Part shown: positions 8,063 through 15,838 of the stretch, one piece after another | Position numbering within the stretch: the first letter of the stretch is position 1 | Layout of the letters: every line of letters begins with the position of its first letter | DNA from: a virus | Virus record (IMG/VR): IMGVR_UViG_3300030060_006600 | Span: 1-24,026 of that record | DNA length: 24,026 nucleotides | Direction: 5' to 3' (one strand) | Made by a program: the position numbers and the translations under genes | The notes under the pieces: generated by a model | What the model was told of the DNA's origin: nothing | The model's database searches: none | What the model saw: only the letters and a program-made list of their open reading frames with translations

Positions 8063-8890
8063 TTGAACATTATAGGATTGGGAAGTGCAGGTTGCAAAAT
8101 AGCTGAAGCCTTTGCAGAGTACCCACAATATAAAATTTTTAAAATAAATGTTGACATCGAGGGGGAGAACTGCTATAGTATACCTATGCTTGAGTCGGCT
8201 GAGGGATACGAGTCGCACTCATACCCAAAGATTAAAACATTTTTTAAAGGAGTAAAGGGGGAAACCGTTTTTATTATTGGTGGCGGTAGCAAAGTATCTT
8301 GCGGTTCTTTGAGAATCCTAGAAGCGATCAAGAACAGAAAAATTTCAATTTTATATATTAAGCCTGATACCTCAATGTTGGATGAAGAATCTTTAATGAT
8401 TGATAAGTTAGTATACAACGTAATGCAAGAATACACACGATCTGGTGTGTTTGAGAGCATGATAATCATTTCAAATCCGGAAGTAGAAAGAGTTATTGGC
8501 GGCGCACCTGTCATCGGCTATCACGATAAACTAAACGAGGCGATAGTACCAACCATCCATATGTTAAATTACTTTCAAAAGAACAAGGCAGTTTCTGGAA
8601 TAATTCCAAAAGCAAAAGAAACTCACAGGATATTCACTGTCGGCCTCTTCGATACGCAAAAAAATGAAGAAAAAATGTTTTTTTCCCTTGACAACCCCAG
8701 AAATAAGTGTTATATTTATGGAGTAAGTGAAGATAAACTAAAAACCGACAAGGATTTTATGAAGAAAGTAAAAAATCAAATTGAATCAAAAAAAGAACAA
8801 AACGTAAGCATAGCATATGCAATTTATTCTACGGAATATGAGTATGACATTGGATATGTTATTTCTAGAACACCTCACATTCAAAAATAA
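8063..8890 (+). CDS. Divergent FtsZ/tubulin-like GTPase
   Basis: A 275-residue protein starting at TTG 8063 with GAGG six bases upstream, right after the polymerase stop. The order of elements follows the tubulin/FtsZ GTPase domain: an N-terminal strand and loop IIGLGSAGCK (3-12, T1), INVD (28-31, T2), a glycine signature IIGGGSKVSCGS (71-82, in place of GGGTGTG), a strand with IKPD (95-102, like FtsZ VTKPF), IIISNPE (134-140, like FtsZ IVIPNDR), and a helix YHDKLNEAIVPTIHMLNYF (153-171) matching helix H7. The signature loop is longer than normal. The catalytic T7-loop acid (FtsZ N-L-D-F-A-D) is not recognisable after residue 175, so GTP hydrolysis on polymerisation may be altered. Known phage relatives (PhuZ, TubZ) build filaments for DNA positioning; a similar role here is inferred. 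A plain Rossmann nucleotide-binding protein is the main alternative. Confidence 0.65.
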   Translation: MNIIGLGSAGCKIAEAFAEYPQYKIFKINVDIEGENCYSIPMLESAEGYESHSYPKIKTFFKGVKGETVFIIGGGSKVSCGSLRILEAIKNRKISILYIKPDTSMLDEESLMIDKLVYNVMQEYTRSGVFESMIIISNPEVERVIGGAPVIGYHDKLNEAIVPTIHMLNYFQKNKAVSGIIPKAKETHRIFTVGLFDTQKNEEKMFFSLDNPRNKCYIYGVSEDKLKTDKDFMKKVKNQIESKKEQNVSIAYAIYSTEYEYDIGYVISRTPHIQK

Positions 8891-8965: not shown

Positions 8966-9742
8966 ATGGGATTAGACATCGCAAAAATTCGAGCACGACT
9001 CGATTCAGTAAAAAACAACGGTAAAGCTGGAGGATCATTCTGGCGACCGAAAGACGGAACACAATCAATCCGAATTGTTCCTACACAGGACGGCGACCCG
9101 TTCAAAGATTATTGGTTTCACTACAATTTGGGACCAGACCAAAAGGGCGGTCTTTTGTGCCCTAAGAAAAATCACGGAGATGAATGTCCGATCTGTGATT
9201 TTAAAGATAAGCTCTGGAAAGAGTTTAATGATAGTCAAGATCAGGACACAATGAAGATGGCAAAAGATCTGTCACCTCGCCAACGTTTCTTTTCACCAGT
9301 GCTTGTGCGCGGCGAAGAAGCAGAAGGACTTAGAATTTGGGGCTATGGCAAAGAGGCTTATACTTCTTTACTAAATCTAGTTCTCAATCCAGAGTATGGT
9401 GATATCACAGATATCGAAGAAGGTACAGACTTGAGCCTCACTTATGGAAAGCCACCAGGCGCATCCTTCCCCAAGACAACCTTGACACCGCGTAGGCGAA
9501 CTAGCCCCTTGTGTGACGAAGCTGTCGGCGGGGATAGCGAATGCAATCGTCTTTTGGAAAATATGCCAAAGTTCGACACGGTATTCCAAGTAAAAAGTAC
9601 AGCAGATGTACAAGCGGCACTCGACGGCTATATGAGCCACCTTGAGGGTAAGCACGAAAGTGATCAGGCTCCTCAAGAATTAGTAACTGACGACGATACT
9701 CCAAGTGTCCTAGCTGCATTCAACGAGCTAAGTGGGAACTAA
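8966..9742 (+). CDS. Single-stranded DNA-binding protein, T4 gp32-type with zinc site
   Basis: A 258-residue protein with ATG at 8966 behind ACAGGAGAAA. Residues 26-60 (FWRPKDGTQSIRIVPTQDGD, then FKDYWFHYNLGP) and the following CPKKNHGDECPICD correspond to the gp32 core. Candidate zinc ligands are H52, C65, C74 and C77. The spacing H-x12-C-x8-C-x2-C is almost the same as in T4 gp32 (H64, C77, C87, C90). The C-terminal ~50 residues are acidic and flexible (VTDDDTPSVLAAFNELSGN), as expected for the tail that recruits replication partners. It coats single-stranded DNA during replication and recombination and should work with the UvsX, helicase and polymerase encoded nearby. It is followed by a repeated hairpin at 9757, which fits a separately abundant transcript. 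Confidence 0.88.
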   Translation: MGLDIAKIRARLDSVKNNGKAGGSFWRPKDGTQSIRIVPTQDGDPFKDYWFHYNLGPDQKGGLLCPKKNHGDECPICDFKDKLWKEFNDSQDQDTMKMAKDLSPRQRFFSPVLVRGEEAEGLRIWGYGKEAYTSLLNLVLNPEYGDITDIEEGTDLSLTYGKPPGASFPKTTLTPRRRTSPLCDEAVGGDSECNRLLENMPKFDTVFQVKSTADVQAALDGYMSHLEGKHESDQAPQELVTDDDTPSVLAAFNELSGN

Positions 9743-9756
9743 CTTCAACCTCCGAA

Positions 9757-9795
9757 CCGCAGGGAGGCATGGGTTTAAAGATGTCTCACTTTTTA
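9757..9795 (+). terminator. Repeated hairpin copy 1 (after SSB gene)
   Basis: GAGGCAT pairs with ATGTCTC (one G-T pair) around a short loop, followed by five T. It begins CCGCAGGGAGGCATGGG, identical to the starts of copies 2 and 3. It has the form of an intrinsic terminator. The FKBP gene starts only 20 bases later with no visible promoter between them, so read-through must occur, or the hairpin acts as an attenuator or as a 3'-end stabiliser or processing site. Confidence 0.65.
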
Positions 9796-10297: not shown

Positions 10298-10314
10298 TCC
10301 CAACTCGTGTCTGG

Positions 10315-10355
10315 CCGCAGGGAGGCATGGGCTCACAGATGCCTCGCCCTTTTTA
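10315..10355 (+). terminator. Repeated hairpin copy 2 (after FKBP gene)
   Basis: GAGGCAT (10323-10329 region) pairs with ATGCCTC, extended by GG with CC, and is followed by five T. It opens with CCGCAGGGAGGCATGGG as in copies 1 and 3. It ends 20 bases before the next ATG with no promoter visible in between, so full termination would silence the small gene downstream. Confidence 0.7.
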
Positions 10356-10569: not shown

Positions 10570-10581
10570 CGCGTGTTGCAG

Positions 10582-10622
10582 CCGCAGGGAGGCATGGGTT
10601 TACAGATGCCTCACCCTTTTTA
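10582..10622 (+). terminator. Repeated hairpin copy 3 (after small membrane protein gene)
   Basis: GAGGCAT pairs with ATGCCTC, extended by GG with CC, then five T. The first 17 bases match copies 1 and 2 and the loop (GGTTTACAG) is close to copy 1. This copy is followed by an AT-rich stretch and then a strong promoter, so here it could act as a true terminator. Confidence 0.75.
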
Positions 10623-10659
10623 TTTGCAAAATATTTTTTAATTTTTTTTAAAATAATGC

Positions 10660-10688
10660 TTGACAAGGTTTTTGTTTCGTGTTATATT
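10660..10688 (+). promoter_or_regulatory. Sigma-70-type promoter for the bL12-like gene
   Basis: A consensus -35 box TTGACA (10660-10665), a 17-base spacer and a -10 box TATATT (10683-10688) lie behind an AT-rich run that could act as an UP element. Transcription would start near 10695, exactly where the conserved leader begins. Confidence 0.8.
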
Positions 10689-10694
10689 AATAAA

Positions 10695-10756
10695 CATCCA
10701 ATGACAACTACGATGTAAAAAGATTGTTATCCAAAATGCCTCCTGGCAAACTGGAT
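10695..10756 (+). promoter_or_regulatory. Structured mRNA leader 1 (bL12-like gene)
   Basis: The block ATCCAATG...CA, then AAAAAGATTGT, then a hairpin, is shared with leader 2 at 11498. The hairpin has an upper stem TGCC (10737-10740) / GGCA (10745-10748) with loop TCCT, and a lower stem ATCC (10729-10732) / GGAT (10753-10756), separated by an internal loop (AAAA / AACT). The lower stem differs in sequence from that of leader 2 but still pairs, as does the closing loop region, so structure seems preserved. A 23-codon ORF starting at 10736 overlaps the bL12-like start but has no ribosome site. Confidence 0.55.
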
Positions 10757-10799
10757 TTATTATTCACTCCAACTGGCAATACTGCCTATAGGAAATATC

Positions 10800-11357
10800 A
10801 TGTATAAAGATAATATTCCCAATTGGGATATCGAAATAAGAGCAGAAGTAGAATTCGGACTGACGATTAAAGCAGAAAACTTTCACGAAGCCGTCGCGAA
10901 AGCACTAGAGATCTCAGAGTGCCCTTGGGCACTTGACCATTACGACACGGACTATGTAACGATGCGTACTGCTGAAGTCGCAGGAGTTACTAAGGTAGAA
11001 GAGGTCGATGCGACAGACCGCATCCTCGACCAAGAATTTCGACAAGTCGCCCAACAGTTCGAAGAACTTATCAAAGATGACTATAAAGTTGTCATGGACT
11101 CTTACGGCACACAGAAAATCAAGGTCATTAAAGCAGTTCGCGCCGCCACCGGCTTGGGCTTGAAAGAAGCCAAGAGTATGGTCGATTCTGCACCTATAAC
11201 CATTGCAGCGGTTTCATCTTTTGCAGATGCATCGTCAATCAAGACCGCTCTCGAATCCGCCGGAGCGTCGGTGTTTATCAATAATTCCCCCCAAGATAAC
11301 GTGGTGGATTTTCGACCATCGCCTCAATCCCACTCAAACAACGACGAGAGCTATTAA
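10800..11357 (+). CDS. Phage protein with ribosomal bL12 (L7/L12) C-terminal domain
   Basis: A 185-residue protein with ATG at 10800 behind TAGGAA. Residues ~88-160 match the bL12 C-terminal domain, including the highly conserved IKVIKAVRAATGLGLKEAK (107-125) and a closing LESAGASVFI. In the ribosome this domain of the stalk binds translation factors such as EF-G and EF-Tu. The bL12 N-terminal dimerisation and uL10-binding domain is missing. In its place residues 10-60 form a small domain of the type IEIRAEVEFGLTIKAENFHEA, a pattern common in phage hypothetical proteins. The tail after 160 is polar. bL12 homologues in phage genomes have been reported; this fused form could alter host translation or recruit factors without joining the stalk. 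It has its own strong promoter and a structured leader and is followed by a degenerate repeated hairpin. Confidence 0.82.
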   Translation: MYKDNIPNWDIEIRAEVEFGLTIKAENFHEAVAKALEISECPWALDHYDTDYVTMRTAEVAGVTKVEEVDATDRILDQEFRQVAQQFEELIKDDYKVVMDSYGTQKIKVIKAVRAATGLGLKEAKSMVDSAPITIAAVSSFADASSIKTALESAGASVFINNSPQDNVVDFRPSPQSHSNNDESY

Positions 11358-11375
11358 TATGCTACTCGTCTTACA

Positions 11376-11420
11376 CCGCCGGGGCACGCGGTTATACAAG
11401 TGCCTCGCATTCATTTGCGT
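11376..11420 (+). terminator. Degenerate repeated hairpin copy 4 (after bL12-like gene)
   Basis: GGGGCAC (11381-11387) pairs with GTGCCTC (11400-11406) with one G-T pair, around a loop related to the other copies (GGTTATACA). It starts CCGCCGGGG rather than CCGCAGGG. A second small stem, CGCA (11406-11409) / TGCG (11416-11419), replaces the T-run, so terminator activity is doubtful. It keeps the same place relative to a gene end as copies 1-3. Confidence 0.5.
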
Positions 11421-11447
11421 TTGTTGCAATAATTCTTAATATAATCC

Positions 11448-11476
11448 TTGACAGGGACTGTATTAAGTGTTATTAT
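11448..11476 (+). promoter_or_regulatory. Sigma-70-type promoter for the ParB-like gene
   Basis: TTGACA (11448-11453), a 17-base spacer and TATTAT (11471-11476). An overlapping TATAAT at 11474-11479 would give a 20-base spacer and is less likely. The conserved leader begins about 20 bases downstream. Confidence 0.75.
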
Positions 11477-11497
11477 AATACATGTATTATGATAAAT

Positions 11498-11582
11498 ATC
11501 CAATGGCATTATGATACAAAAAGATTGTCACTTACGCTCAAATGCCTTCGGGCAATCGAGCAATTTATAACAGGCATTGGAT
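11498..11582 (+). promoter_or_regulatory. Structured mRNA leader 2 (ParB-like gene)
   Basis: It shares ATCCAATG, AAAAAGATTGT and the two-part hairpin with leader 1. Here the upper stem is TGCC (11543-11546) / GGCA (11551-11554) with a TTCG loop, and the lower stem is GCTC (11536-11539) / GAGC (11558-11561). An extra long-range pairing is possible between ATCCAATG (11498-11505) and CATTGGAT (11575-11582), ending just before the AAGGAG ribosome site. GGCATT (11505-11510) could instead pair with AATGCC (11541-11546), giving mutually exclusive folds. This arrangement could expose or hide the start region of the ParB-like gene. Confidence 0.55.
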
Positions 11583-11597
11583 GCCAAGGAGACTTAA

Positions 11598-12782
11598 ATG
11601 TCATATGACAATTACACAGAAGAAAAAGAGGATCTTGAAATCCTCACACCATCATCAGATAACTCTGACTTGTCAGCTTTTTGTACAGCAGTGGAAAAAG
11701 TTTTTAATAACAGTTATTTGTTCAACCACGTAAATCGTCGTCAGTTGAAGATGCATAAAGATAAAGTGCATTTATCTGAATTCCGAACACACGTAGCAGA
11801 CGGCACTATAAGTACAGATCTGACCCCGGCCTATCATTTTGTTGGATTCGCATGGCTAAATCTAAAAGAAATCTCTTTGGAAGATGTGAAAGCACTCAAC
11901 CAAACAGATGGCGCACGAGTCAAAGATGATAAGCCTCGTTCTGAATTACTGGCAGACTATATCGAAGAAGCTGGATTTATTACACGACTAGGCTGTCCTC
12001 AAGTAAGACTTGACAACGGTATGCCAATCACTGGTCGAGGTCGCATTCGCGCATTCATTGACCGAGGCGAGGATTATTGTCCAGTTGCCGTTTTTGCTGA
12101 ACTGCCGACTAAAGAAATGAATGCAGAACAGTTGAGGCAGCACAATTACCATAAAATGATTGCAGCCAACAAAGGCAACAATGATGGTGATCCGAAAGAA
12201 AAAACTTCATACGAAAGCTTTGTTCGCCAGATTGTTCTCTTAATTGAAGAAGGTACGGTCAAAGATGATCAAGGCTGTAAAAAATATCTTAAGTCTGTGG
12301 GAGCATATCGCACTTTGACTAAATCTTCAATCGGAAAAGTATTCAACTCTGCTTTGAGAAGTATCGCAAAGGCAGACTCGGCAATGCTCAATAGAGAAGA
12401 AGAATCCGCAGTTCAGTGGCTTGACGACAATACCGACATGGTAAGAAACAAAGATTATGTTCTTTTTAATTTCAAAGACATAACCTACGTGAAGAGACTT
12501 TGGACTGATCATATTCTAACTTCAAATAAGCTAACGCTTCCACTTGTAGGATATACATCTGACTTTAGTTATGCTGATGCAAAACAAAATGCAGAAATTG
12601 CAGAAAAGTTTCTAAAAAAAGCTTGGGAGGACACAGTTGAGAAGATGAATAGTCGATTAACTGGTCTCACCCTCGACGTAGAGAATCTTGTTGCCCCTTA
12701 TACATTGGAAGGATTTGTTCCCCAATCAGTTGATGACCATGACATAGACGGTGATCTAATTCTTAAGGCAAAGGATTACTAA
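11598..12782 (+). CDS. ParB/Srx-fold protein
   Basis: A 394-residue protein with ATG at 11598 behind AAGGAG. Residues ~110-170 show a ParB N-terminal-type core: SELLADYIEEAGFITRLGCP, then PITGRGRIRAFIDRGEDYCPV, where GRGRIRAF (146-153) corresponds to the G-x-x-R-x-x-A box that binds CTP or carries nuclease-like activity in this family. The next ~150 residues are helical and may bind DNA, but no clear helix-turn-helix was identified. It is not accompanied by a ParA gene, so plasmid-style partition is unlikely. It overlaps the Dam-type methylase start by one base (TAATG). ParB-like proteins next to phage DNA methylases are often seen, suggesting a shared DNA-modification or DNA-processing task. 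It has its own promoter and leader. Confidence 0.7.
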   Translation: MSYDNYTEEKEDLEILTPSSDNSDLSAFCTAVEKVFNNSYLFNHVNRRQLKMHKDKVHLSEFRTHVADGTISTDLTPAYHFVGFAWLNLKEISLEDVKALNQTDGARVKDDKPRSELLADYIEEAGFITRLGCPQVRLDNGMPITGRGRIRAFIDRGEDYCPVAVFAELPTKEMNAEQLRQHNYHKMIAANKGNNDGDPKEKTSYESFVRQIVLLIEEGTVKDDQGCKKYLKSVGAYRTLTKSSIGKVFNSALRSIAKADSAMLNREEESAVQWLDDNTDMVRNKDYVLFNFKDITYVKRLWTDHILTSNKLTLPLVGYTSDFSYADAKQNAEIAEKFLKKAWEDTVEKMNSRLTGLTLDVENLVAPYTLEGFVPQSVDDHDIDGDLILKAKDY

Positions 12783-13744
12783 TGAAAACGCCACTACGCT
12801 ATCCGGGCGGCAAATCACGCGCCGTCAAACACATTCTCCCTTTTATCCCCGAAGATTGTAAAGAGCTTTGCTCTCCTTTCCTCGGTGGAGGATCAATAGA
12901 GTTAGCAGTGGCCGCACGGGGTGCAAAGGTGTATGCATACGACATCTTTGCACCCCTTGTATGGTTCTGGGAAGCACTATTAGAAGATCCAGAAAGTCTA
13001 CTGCAACAAGTAGAAAAATACAGAGAGCCTGTAATTAATTATACAGATGATCAACGCCTTCGTTCTGAATTTGAAAAATGTCAGAATAAAAAGAACGATA
13101 TGGATAAGCTTGTAGAAGTAATGAAAGGCTCCATAAAAGGTGTCTCCAAGCTGCACTTTGAAGACATCAGAGAATTAGTCAATACTCGATCTCAAAAGCC
13201 AAAAGGAGAAAGGCTATTTAAAGCCGCAGCGCAATATTACATTGTCAACAGAACAAGTTTTTCTGGCGCAACGACTTCTGGTGGATGGTCTTGGAAAGCA
13301 AGTTGGGCAAGGCTGACAGAAACTACACTAGATAATTTAAGGTCTTTTAGGGAAGATAATCTTACTGTAAAGAGGGCTTCTTTTGAAGAGTCAATTGCCG
13401 CACACCCTGATGCATTTTTATATTTAGACCCTCCCTATATGTTAAAGAAAGAATATATACCAGAGCATACTGATGAAAGAACTGGCAAGCTTGTTGATGG
13501 ATATTGGATGGATAGAGACAGGCTCTATGGAAAAGATGGAGATCTGCACTCATCATTCGACCACAAGGGTCTGCATGATATTCTAACGCAAAGAGGGAAC
13601 TGGGTTCTTTCCTACAATAACTCTCCAGAGATTAGAGATTTATATAAAAATTATAAAATCGTTGAGGCTGATTGGGCTTACGGTATGAAGAACGTATCAA
13701 CAAAAAAGATGGGCTCTTCGTCTGAAATCATTATCATAGGATAA
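12782..13744 (+). CDS. dam: DNA N6-adenine methyltransferase, Dam family
   Basis: A 320-residue protein with ATG overlapping the previous stop. It carries the alpha-group motifs in order: motif X LRYPGGKSRA (5-14), motif I PFLGGGSIELAVA (32-44, SAM binding), TSFSGATTSGG (158-168) and the catalytic motif IV LDPPY (215-219). Dam enzymes methylate adenine in a short target, classically GATC. The target here cannot be read from sequence because the recognition region (~100-150) has diverged and holds a lysine-rich insert. The protein is longer than E. coli Dam (278 residues) through insertions at ~100-140 and ~222-255. It probably protects phage DNA from host or self nucleases. It is translationally linked to ParB-like and nuclease-like neighbours. 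Confidence 0.9.
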   Translation: MKTPLRYPGGKSRAVKHILPFIPEDCKELCSPFLGGGSIELAVAARGAKVYAYDIFAPLVWFWEALLEDPESLLQQVEKYREPVINYTDDQRLRSEFEKCQNKKNDMDKLVEVMKGSIKGVSKLHFEDIRELVNTRSQKPKGERLFKAAAQYYIVNRTSFSGATTSGGWSWKASWARLTETTLDNLRSFREDNLTVKRASFEESIAAHPDAFLYLDPPYMLKKEYIPEHTDERTGKLVDGYWMDRDRLYGKDGDLHSSFDHKGLHDILTQRGNWVLSYNNSPEIRDLYKNYKIVEADWAYGMKNVSTKKMGSSSEIIIIG

Positions 13745-13747
13745 ACA

Positions 13748-14665
13748 ATGTCAAGAAATACTTTACTTGCAGATATTAATGAAATTATGATGGCTTATTA
13801 TTTATCTGGCGGCTGGTCTAAGATCCAGAACTCTGAAGATGCCAAAGCAGCCTTGAAAGAAAAAGCATCACAGCTGACCCCTCAAGAGGTAAATGATCAA
13901 AAAGGTCGCGCCAAGATTATGGCAGAGGACGCACTAAACTGGGCAGCGTCGAATGGGTGGACAGGTGATCCAAGCGAAATATGGTGGACAGCTCGCCCAA
14001 ATGTGTTAGCTTCCGCGATTACTGCACCGCCCTCGCCGGGAAACCCTACAGATGTTTTGGCAAAATTTGGTGATGACTTCTTGGGTTTCTCGGCCAAGTC
14101 TACTAAGTCAGCATCCAACATAGGATTTAAAAATCCCGGCGCAAAGCCAATCGCAAGCGCACTAGGGATAGACATTACAGGTACAGTAAAAGATGCCACA
14201 CTGGAAGTAATAGAAAATTATATTCTTCCACCAAAGCAAACAACTCGAAAGCAATATATTAGAAGCCTAAAGACGAAGAAGCCAGAGGTGTTTAAAGACA
14301 TCGAACAAGCCGGTTACGACCTTCTAAAAAAATTAAGAGATATGCTGCTGGAAAGACTTAAATATATGGGTGACGAGGATTTGAGAGAGCATATTATTGA
14401 TTACTGGTTGGACGCTAACGCACCTTATCCATATTATATTAAAGTTACCGGTCGAGGTAAGAACGGAAACTATTCTGCAAACATTTCAGACCCCACAAAG
14501 AATGAAAAATACAAAGCATTAATGGCAGACCCAATTAGGGTTGTCCCTGTAGGAGATACGTCCGTTGGAATTATGGCAGGTAATACCAAGATTATGAAAA
14601 TGCGATATAAATATGAATCTCAAAAAATGGCATCATCATTAAAAATGTCTGGTGATCCATGGTAA
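13748..14665 (+). CDS. Putative PD-(D/E)XK-type nuclease
   Basis: A 305-residue protein with ATG at 13748 and ATAGGAT upstream. It has a helical N-terminus with DALNWAASNGW (60s). The most telling part is NPTDVLAKF (residues ~97-105) followed by FLGFSAKSTKSA and GFKNPG. The D...(S)xK spacing resembles the active site of PD-(D/E)XK restriction-like nucleases, with the acidic second residue replaced by S-A-K. The C-terminal half (from ~150) is mixed helical and strand, with YPYYIKVTGRGK. It follows the Dam-family methylase by three bases, as a cognate endonuclease would. I do not recognise the family with certainty; a DNA-binding structural protein is the alternative. Confidence 0.45.
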   Translation: MSRNTLLADINEIMMAYYLSGGWSKIQNSEDAKAALKEKASQLTPQEVNDQKGRAKIMAEDALNWAASNGWTGDPSEIWWTARPNVLASAITAPPSPGNPTDVLAKFGDDFLGFSAKSTKSASNIGFKNPGAKPIASALGIDITGTVKDATLEVIENYILPPKQTTRKQYIRSLKTKKPEVFKDIEQAGYDLLKKLRDMLLERLKYMGDEDLREHIIDYWLDANAPYPYYIKVTGRGKNGNYSANISDPTKNEKYKALMADPIRVVPVGDTSVGIMAGNTKIMKMRYKYESQKMASSLKMSGDPW

Positions 14666-14719: not shown

Positions 14720-15838
14720 ATGCCTAAGAAAACAAAAACATCTGCTGGAAAAATTTCTTTAGCGGATATGAGAAATGCAATTAATAAAAGAGCGGGCATG
14801 AATGTCGCTCATGATCTAAATGATGAAAACCCCACAGAAGTAACACAGTGGATTCCTACTGGGTCACGATGGCTAGATTCTATTGTTTGCAAAGGCAAAT
14901 ATGCTGGGATCCCCGTTGGTAAGGTTTCAGAAATTGCAGGTCTTGAAGCCACTGGCAAGTCATACATGGCTGCACAAATCGCAGCAAATGCACAAAAGAT
15001 GGGAATTGATGTTGTCTATTTCGATTCGGAATCTGCAATTGATCCTTCTTTCCTCACGAATGCTGGCTGCAATTTAAACAACCTTCTTTATGTCCAAGCA
15101 CAGTCTGTTGAGTTTGTGCTGGAGACAATCGAAGAACTTCTGGCCTCTGAAAACCAATTTTTATTTATTTGGGACTCCTTGGCACTGACCCCTGCAATCA
15201 CAGAGGTTGAAGGCAGCTTTGATCCGATGTCACAAATGGCTATGAAAGCCAGAATCCTAGCTCGTGCAATGTCCAAACTCACAGTTCCAATCGCCAATGC
15301 AAACGCCACGTTGCTAGTTTTGAATCAGCTAAAGACAAATATCACCAGAAGCCCATCTGAAGCTATGACAACGCCATATGTGACTCCCGGCGGAAAAGCA
15401 ATGAATTATACCTACTCTCTCCGGGTTTGGCTAACTGGTCGAAAAGCAAAGGCGAGCTTCGTCTTGGATGACAATGGTTTCCGAATCGGCTCTGAAGTCA
15501 AAGTAAAACTTGAAAAGTCACGCTTCGGCACTGCCGGTCGTCAATGTAATTTCCGAATCCTGTGGGGTGGTGATGACATAGCAATTCAAGATGACGAATC
15601 TCTTTTCGATGCTGTAAGCGGCTCAGATAGAATTCTTCGCTCTGGAGCATGGTATACTATGGTGTTTGATGACGGAACAACAGAGAAATTTCAAGCTGCA
15701 AAGTGGGTCGAAAAAATGCAAAATGACAAATTCCGCCAACAGGTTTATAAGATCATGGATGAAGAAGTTATTAGAAAGTTCGACACGCGCCAAGGAAACG
15801 CTGCCGATTTCTATGATTCTGAAGAAGAGACAGACTAA
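14720..15838 (+). CDS. uvsX: UvsX/RecA-family recombinase
   Basis: A 372-residue protein with ATG at 14720 behind AAAAAGGAG. It shows the RecA core: P-x-G-S-R-W-L-D (47-53), Walker A GLEATGKS (74-81), VVYFDSESA (95-105), Walker B-like FLFIWDSLALTP (~147-158), and LLVLNQLKTNI followed by PYVTPGGKAMNYTYSLRVWL (motif and sensor region, ~197-235). It forms filaments on single-stranded DNA, pairs homologous strands and drives recombination-dependent replication. The gp32-type SSB upstream is its expected partner. The C-terminus is acidic (DSEEETD). Its length is close to T4 UvsX (391). A UvsY-type mediator was not recognised in the window. Confidence 0.9.
   Translation: MPKKTKTSAGKISLADMRNAINKRAGMNVAHDLNDENPTEVTQWIPTGSRWLDSIVCKGKYAGIPVGKVSEIAGLEATGKSYMAAQIAANAQKMGIDVVYFDSESAIDPSFLTNAGCNLNNLLYVQAQSVEFVLETIEELLASENQFLFIWDSLALTPAITEVEGSFDPMSQMAMKARILARAMSKLTVPIANANATLLVLNQLKTNITRSPSEAMTTPYVTPGGKAMNYTYSLRVWLTGRKAKASFVLDDNGFRIGSEVKVKLEKSRFGTAGRQCNFRILWGGDDIAIQDDESLFDAVSGSDRILRSGAWYTMVFDDGTTEKFQAAKWVEKMQNDKFRQQVYKIMDEEVIRKFDTRQGNAADFYDSEEETD

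Follow-up and report, generated by a model that had tools for sequence, protein, structure and literature searches.

Two related structured leaders in a phage cargo insert: a candidate cis-acting regulatory RNA with a likely pseudoknot and two hairpins

The window analysed here, 24,026 nucleotides long, covers the opening 24 kb of a virus record of 60.7 kb (IMG/VR IMGVR_UViG_3300030060_006600); the promoters, leaders, hairpin elements and genes of the insert mapped below lie on its + strand. Its T4-like gene set, which includes a gp32-like SSB (8966–9742), an FKBP and a UvsX/RecA-like protein (14720–15838) among others, is typical enough to suggest an uncultured T4-like phage as the source. 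Numerous close relatives are found in IMG/VR by RecA, with identities of up to 88%; none of the named isolates is close, the best UvsX match being that of a Microcystis phage at 33%. A 275-aa ORF at 8063–8890, the start of which resembles a tubulin/FtsZ-type GTPase (MNIIGLGSAGCKIA), has no match in Pfam, PHROG or NCBIfam.

Judged by sequence comparison with related contigs, positions 10570–14665 form a hot spot for cargo, flanked by the gp32 block and recA. The 4.1-kb insert located here is absent from close relatives and consists, in this order, of a promoter, leader 1, a gene for a bL12-domain protein, a second promoter, leader 2, ORF394, Dam and ORF305; both leaders are confined to it. The first gene (10800–11357) encodes 185 aa and had been called bL12-like in the initial annotation, a name borne out by the C-terminal domain PF00542 at residues 96–160 (E 1.9e-22; TIGR00855 reaches E 3.1e-18, below that model's cut-off). 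The ~90 aa ahead of this domain (10800–11090) are unrelated to it and have no known relatives, and the protein resembles the variably placed bL12 domains reported from other phages (PMC6375957). Other phage records share the bL12 domain only, and peptide-pattern scans of IMG/VR returned no relative of the gene. The second operon begins with ORF394 (11598–12782), for which no match was obtained in Pfam, NCBIfam or PADLOC; nor did a relative turn up in IMG/VR, among phages and plasmids, or in 369 Halomonas-class genomes. It had been described as ParB-like; since the Pfam profiles, that of ParB included, gave no match at E up to 10, this label is unsupported. Single-sequence structure models were too poor for use, both for ORF394 (pLDDT 40) and for ORF456, a cargo ORF of the related contig L007 (pLDDT 36). 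ORF394 is followed by Dam, a D12-class adenine methylase (12782–13744; PF02086, E 4.5e-26), and by ORF305 (13748–14665), to which a protein of cyanophage S-B68 is weakly related at 26% identity. A stretch of ORF305, DVLAKFGDDFLGFSAKSTKS, reads by eye like a PD-(D/E)XK nuclease core.

Each of the two leaders is preceded by a predicted promoter with 11 of 12 consensus matches and a TG before the –10 element, TTGACA-17-TATATT at 10660–10688 and TTGACA-17-TATTAT at 11448–11476. Leader 1 (10693–10799) forms the 5′ UTR of the bL12-domain gene and leader 2 (11495–11597) that of ORF394–Dam–ORF305. Their local alignment scores 36, as opposed to a maximum of 28 among 2,000 dinucleotide shuffles, none of which was as good, and the blocks ATCCAATG, AAAAAGATTGT and AAATGCC..GGCAA recur at 10693–10756 and 11495–11561; the relatedness and the shared blocks noticed initially are thus confirmed. 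The similarity extends into the promoters, which align with each other, a likeness that had been overlooked. Both leaders are predicted to be structured, with whole-leader folding z-scores of about –2.4 against shuffles (–2.45 for leader 1). Consensus folds yield z of about –2.4 with sequence-only alignments, which misplace the lower stem of the hairpin P2 described below, and –8.8 with a structure-guided alignment, a value biased by that guidance; covariation evidence is limited to two leader sequences. The best reading of the pair, based on sequence, is that both derive from a single regulatory RNA module acting in cis. The related contig L034 has almost the same promoter but only a short UTR behind it, without the leader, and the leader is therefore a module separable from its promoter. 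A more modest explanation is that promoter and 5′ UTR were duplicated together and that the structure does no more than stabilize the mRNA or shield it from adjacent sequence, with no ligand involved. The joint alignment of promoters and leaders fits this explanation, as does the lack of a third copy anywhere in the phage record; hairpins adjoining both Shine-Dalgarno sequences and conserved loops (see below) speak against it, and we regard it as doubtful. The ATG of ATCCAATG could open a short upstream ORF (MTTTM, MAL), but this idea was dropped: the block contains a one-base indel and its changes preserve the stems, both of which argue against a coding role.

The structural core of the module is the two-part hairpin P2, with the sequence UCCA-AAA-UGCC-UCCU-GGCA-AAC-UGGA in leader 1 (10730–10755) and GCUC-AAA-UGCC-UUCG-GGCA-AUC-GAGC in leader 2 (11536–11561). 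In agreement with the initial description of such a hairpin in both leaders, each P2 folds better than all of its 200 shuffles (z –3.57 and –3.56). P2 is conserved through compensatory change: all eight pairs are kept between the leaders, three of them with changes on both sides (P ~0.0003 under random substitution). Four compensated pairs had been counted in the lower stem, in a register which was off by one. In the correct register, TCCA/TGGA (10730–10733/10752–10755) corresponds to GCTC/GAGC (11536–11539/11558–11561), so three pairs are doubly changed and one C–G pair is unchanged.

The same palindromes could also be read as DNA. Dam and ORF305 (12782–14665) are possibly a restriction-modification pair, and restriction-modification operons often carry a regulator; a dimeric protein such as ORF394 might bind the TGCC-N4-GGCA and GGCA-N4/5-TGCC motifs, of which the palindromic AAATGCCTYCKGGCAA is common to both leaders, and repress both promoters. 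Such operators are unlikely, given that the two copies have different lower half-sites whose pairing nevertheless stays intact, which fits RNA better, and that the sites lie ~40–80 bp downstream of the predicted starts. Nor do the pair changes in the helices S1 and S2 described below require an explanation at the level of DNA.

A second hairpin, P3, with a GGCA/UGCC stem adjoins the Shine-Dalgarno sequence at the end of both leaders and was absent from the initial annotation. In leader 1 it is predicted as GGCA(AUAC)UGCC (10775–10786) within a larger element (10768–10793), in which UCC (10768–10770) pairs with the GGA of the Shine-Dalgarno sequence (10791–10793); both pairings appear in the minimum-energy (MFE) and centroid folds. 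In leader 2, GGCAU(UGG)AUGCC (11573–11585) is directly followed by AAGGAG. The whole-leader MFE fold of leader 2 contains an alternative long-range helix instead (11497–11583), in which 11497–11505 pairs with 11575–11583 through 9 bp including one G–U and which ends 3 nt before AAGGAG. Alternative long-range pairs ending near the ribosome site of leader 2 had indeed been anticipated; the helix has no counterpart in leader 1. Hairpins near the 5′ end directly after strong promoters would also suit a transcription-level element, either an attenuator or an antitermination RNA acting on RNA polymerase in the manner of put, and put RNAs also form two stem-loops. We consider an element of this kind quite unlikely, as the + strand search detected no terminator-like site in either leader and terminator-like elements stand after the genes.

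Upstream of P2, the 5′ block of both leaders can be fitted to a putative H-type pseudoknot, a fit which the initial annotation did not include. In leader 1 (10694–10729), S1 (10694–10698/10712–10716, ACAUC with GAUGU) is part of the MFE fold and S2 (10702–10706/10725–10729) of the consensus fold; loop CAA occupies 10699–10701 and loop AAAAAGAU 10717–10724. In leader 2 (11497–11530), the corresponding elements are S1 (11497–11500/11513–11516), loop CAA (11501–11503), S2 (11504–11508/11526–11530) and loop CAAAAAGAU (11517–11525). S2, in which UGRCA pairs with UGUYA, was obtained with RNAalifold from the structure-guided alignment, and in both leaders the two helices cross and would together form the pseudoknot. 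Between the leaders, one S1 pair changes from C–G to U–A in a compensatory manner, and S2 shows the changes G·U to G–C and A–U to G·U. When every register was searched, 1.35% of shuffled blocks (P 0.0135) yielded a conserved pseudoknot with 9 bp or more, and 0.5% (P 0.005) did so if at least four stem substitutions were also required. Under mostly-transition substitutions, keeping the pairs is less surprising (P 0.04–0.19): seven random transitions applied to the real leader 1 leave a conserved pseudoknot in 19% of cases, and the H-type pseudoknot, with its A-rich crossing loop, is for this reason likely rather than proven. A loose descriptor of the pseudoknot alone is not specific, with 199 matches in 3.4 Mb.

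The location of this element bears on several explanations. With the predicted transcription start of leader 1 at the base of S1, the transcript could be protected by a 5′-terminal stem, in line with a duplicated, merely stabilizing UTR. However, conserved nucleotides are found not only in stems but also in loop 1 (CAA) and loop 3 (AAAAAGAU), which suggests recognition. The small H-type pseudoknot with S1, S2 and an A-rich third, crossing loop also recalls the preQ1-I and SAM-II riboswitches, and SAM is used by a methylase operon. A small-metabolite riboswitch is nevertheless very improbable. Covariance models of these classes find no match; across Rfam, riboswitches included, there are no matches at gathering score in the window, and relaxing the limit to E 5 brings up nothing above chance level, consistent with the earlier remark that the leaders match no familiar riboswitch class. 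Furthermore, loop 2 varies between the leaders in length and sequence (ACUAC vs UUAU), which argues against a shared pocket there, and a bL12-domain gene would be an atypical target. No finding points to a metabolite, and a protein would be the more likely ligand.

A phage precedent for a translational operator of this type is T4 gene 32, where a pseudoknot in the 5′ leader nucleates repression (PMC535899, PMC3014915). Like the gene 32 leaders of T4, T2 and RB69, those described here would place an H-type pseudoknot near the mRNA 5′ end, some 70–105 nt before the AUG, and the phage likewise encodes a gp32-like SSB (8966–9742). In contrast to the T4-type operator, two hairpins replace the unstructured A+U-rich UUAAA/UAAA stretch up to the ribosome site, and the leaders precede other genes; the region upstream of this phage's own gene 32 (8966) contains no such pseudoknot leader. 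Lacking both the open UUAAA-rich stretch and the gene 32 location, the leaders fall outside the gene 32 operator class. Ribosomal-protein leaders (L10, RF00557; rpsO/S15) offer another parallel, since they are structured leaders before ribosomal-protein genes, as leader 1 precedes a ribosomal-protein-like gene, and pseudoknot operators exist among them (rpsO). Unlike these, the present leaders have no Rfam match, the L10 leader model RF00557 included for the window, and one of them stands before a methylase operon that has no relation to such genes. In bacteria, binding to the L10 leader occurs via L10 and not via L12 by itself.

Our preferred reading, to which we assign a probability of roughly 40%, is that the leaders are cis-acting translational operators working in a manner similar to the T4 gene 32 pseudoknot. 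They are promoter-proximal and related to each other, P2 has undergone compensatory change, and a hairpin lies beside each Shine-Dalgarno sequence. The pseudoknot, P2 or both would serve as the docking site of a trans factor, and we infer that its binding would alter the openness of the Shine-Dalgarno sequence via P3 and, in leader 1, via the UCC/GGA cover. If so, one factor would co-regulate the bL12-domain gene and the ORF394–Dam–ORF305 operon at the level of translation; candidates are the phage bL12-domain protein or SSB, or a host ribosomal protein. Counting against the operator are the restriction to two sequences and the non-conserved long-range switch of leader 2. The more ambitious proposal of a new leader RNA class, composed of a pseudoknot and two hairpins, through which one trans factor jointly controls the bL12-domain protein and the DNA-methylation cargo operon, is unlikely. 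If true, it would add a further viral case of a pseudoknot in translational control, and a second, unrelated phage leader pseudoknot, tied to a ribosome-associated protein and a methylase cassette, would allow a direct test of cargo-gene switching.

Further copies of the leader were sought widely. Five exact-pattern scans of IMG/VR and one pattern in 84,980 bacterial and archaeal species genomes yielded no homologue; the matches inspected look like chance and lie, for the most part, within genes. When a profile was run over 3.4 Mb of collected loci, both leaders came back at E <1e-22, and no other match fell below E 0.06. The covariance model R1 found none at E ≤ 0.001 either in 80 related phage records, where one weak match reached E 0.38, or in 1,049 bacterial genomes taken from three classes, chosen around an alphaproteobacterium, a Halomonas and a Tenacibaculum. 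By blastn, leader DNA gave nothing or chance-level matches in phages (both leaders) and plasmids (leader 2). Homologues could be missed, as the pattern scans tolerate no mismatch and the collections may lack the records closest to the window. The view of the leaders as a cis-acting regulatory RNA put forward initially is thus upheld by their promoter-proximal position, the compensatory stem changes and the Shine-Dalgarno hairpin, whereas the outcome of the pattern, profile and covariance searches, among them the covariance search originally proposed as a check, tells against it.

A further observation concerns a conserved, strongly covarying 3′ hairpin element with the sequence CCGCAGG-GAGGCAY-GGGUUUACAG-RUGCCUC, or CCACAGG-GAGGCAC-AGGGUUAUCAG-GUGCCUC in a second type. 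Model R2 places copies after the gp32-like SSB gene (9754–9793; 59.9 bits), after the FKBP gene (10312–10351; 53.5 bits) and after ORF64, just before promoter 1 (10579–10618; 60.5 bits), as well as a diverged copy after the bL12-domain gene (11373–11412; 33.4 bits, E 4.9e-5), which belonged to the R2 training alignment. Many relatives carry the element shortly after the gp32 stop codon, mostly at 11–26 nt. The alignment holds 49 copies, taken from this window and from contigs related to it. Across 45 distinct sequences, standard pairs fill 99.4% of the pair cells, and 25 cells are double-changed, compared with 8.1 in shuffles, of which none in 500 reached that number; the 5′ flank and the loop are nearly invariant. 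No Rfam family matches the hairpin. As many copies lack a T run (23 of 63 have none of four or more), it may be more than a terminator. A promoter lies within 150 nt in 4 of 63 copies, all four at cargo or former-cargo junctions, and the diverged copy likewise precedes a promoter. The hairpin appears to mark cassette junctions in this phage group and would provide a handle on cargo exchange.

The arrangement resembles the promoter-stem-loop (PeSL) cassettes of T4-type phages (Arbiol 2010; Comeau 2014), as far as these are outlined in the citing literature. In both, a stem-loop and then a promoter stand at a gene junction (10579–10618 before 10660; 11373–11412 before 11448), with the promoter here ~40 nt beyond the element at the point where cargo genes enter. 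Gene shuffling at the same junction is a further likeness. L010 encodes an identical ORF64 protein with RecA directly after it and no cargo at the insert site, L025 has Dam only and L034 ORF397 with a Dam relative; L030 carries Dam plus ORF343, and L007 has another leader type with the 456-aa ORF456, a weak GmrSD_N match. Conversely, the present leaders follow the promoter, outside PeSL as the citing paper describes it, and the stem-loop is highly conserved in sequence and often without a T run. The second leader type is seen at L007:8440–8581 and L031:9888–10000, with the common block AAGGAARGATACTAAAACWTTTTCC; L031 retains part of it without a cargo gene.
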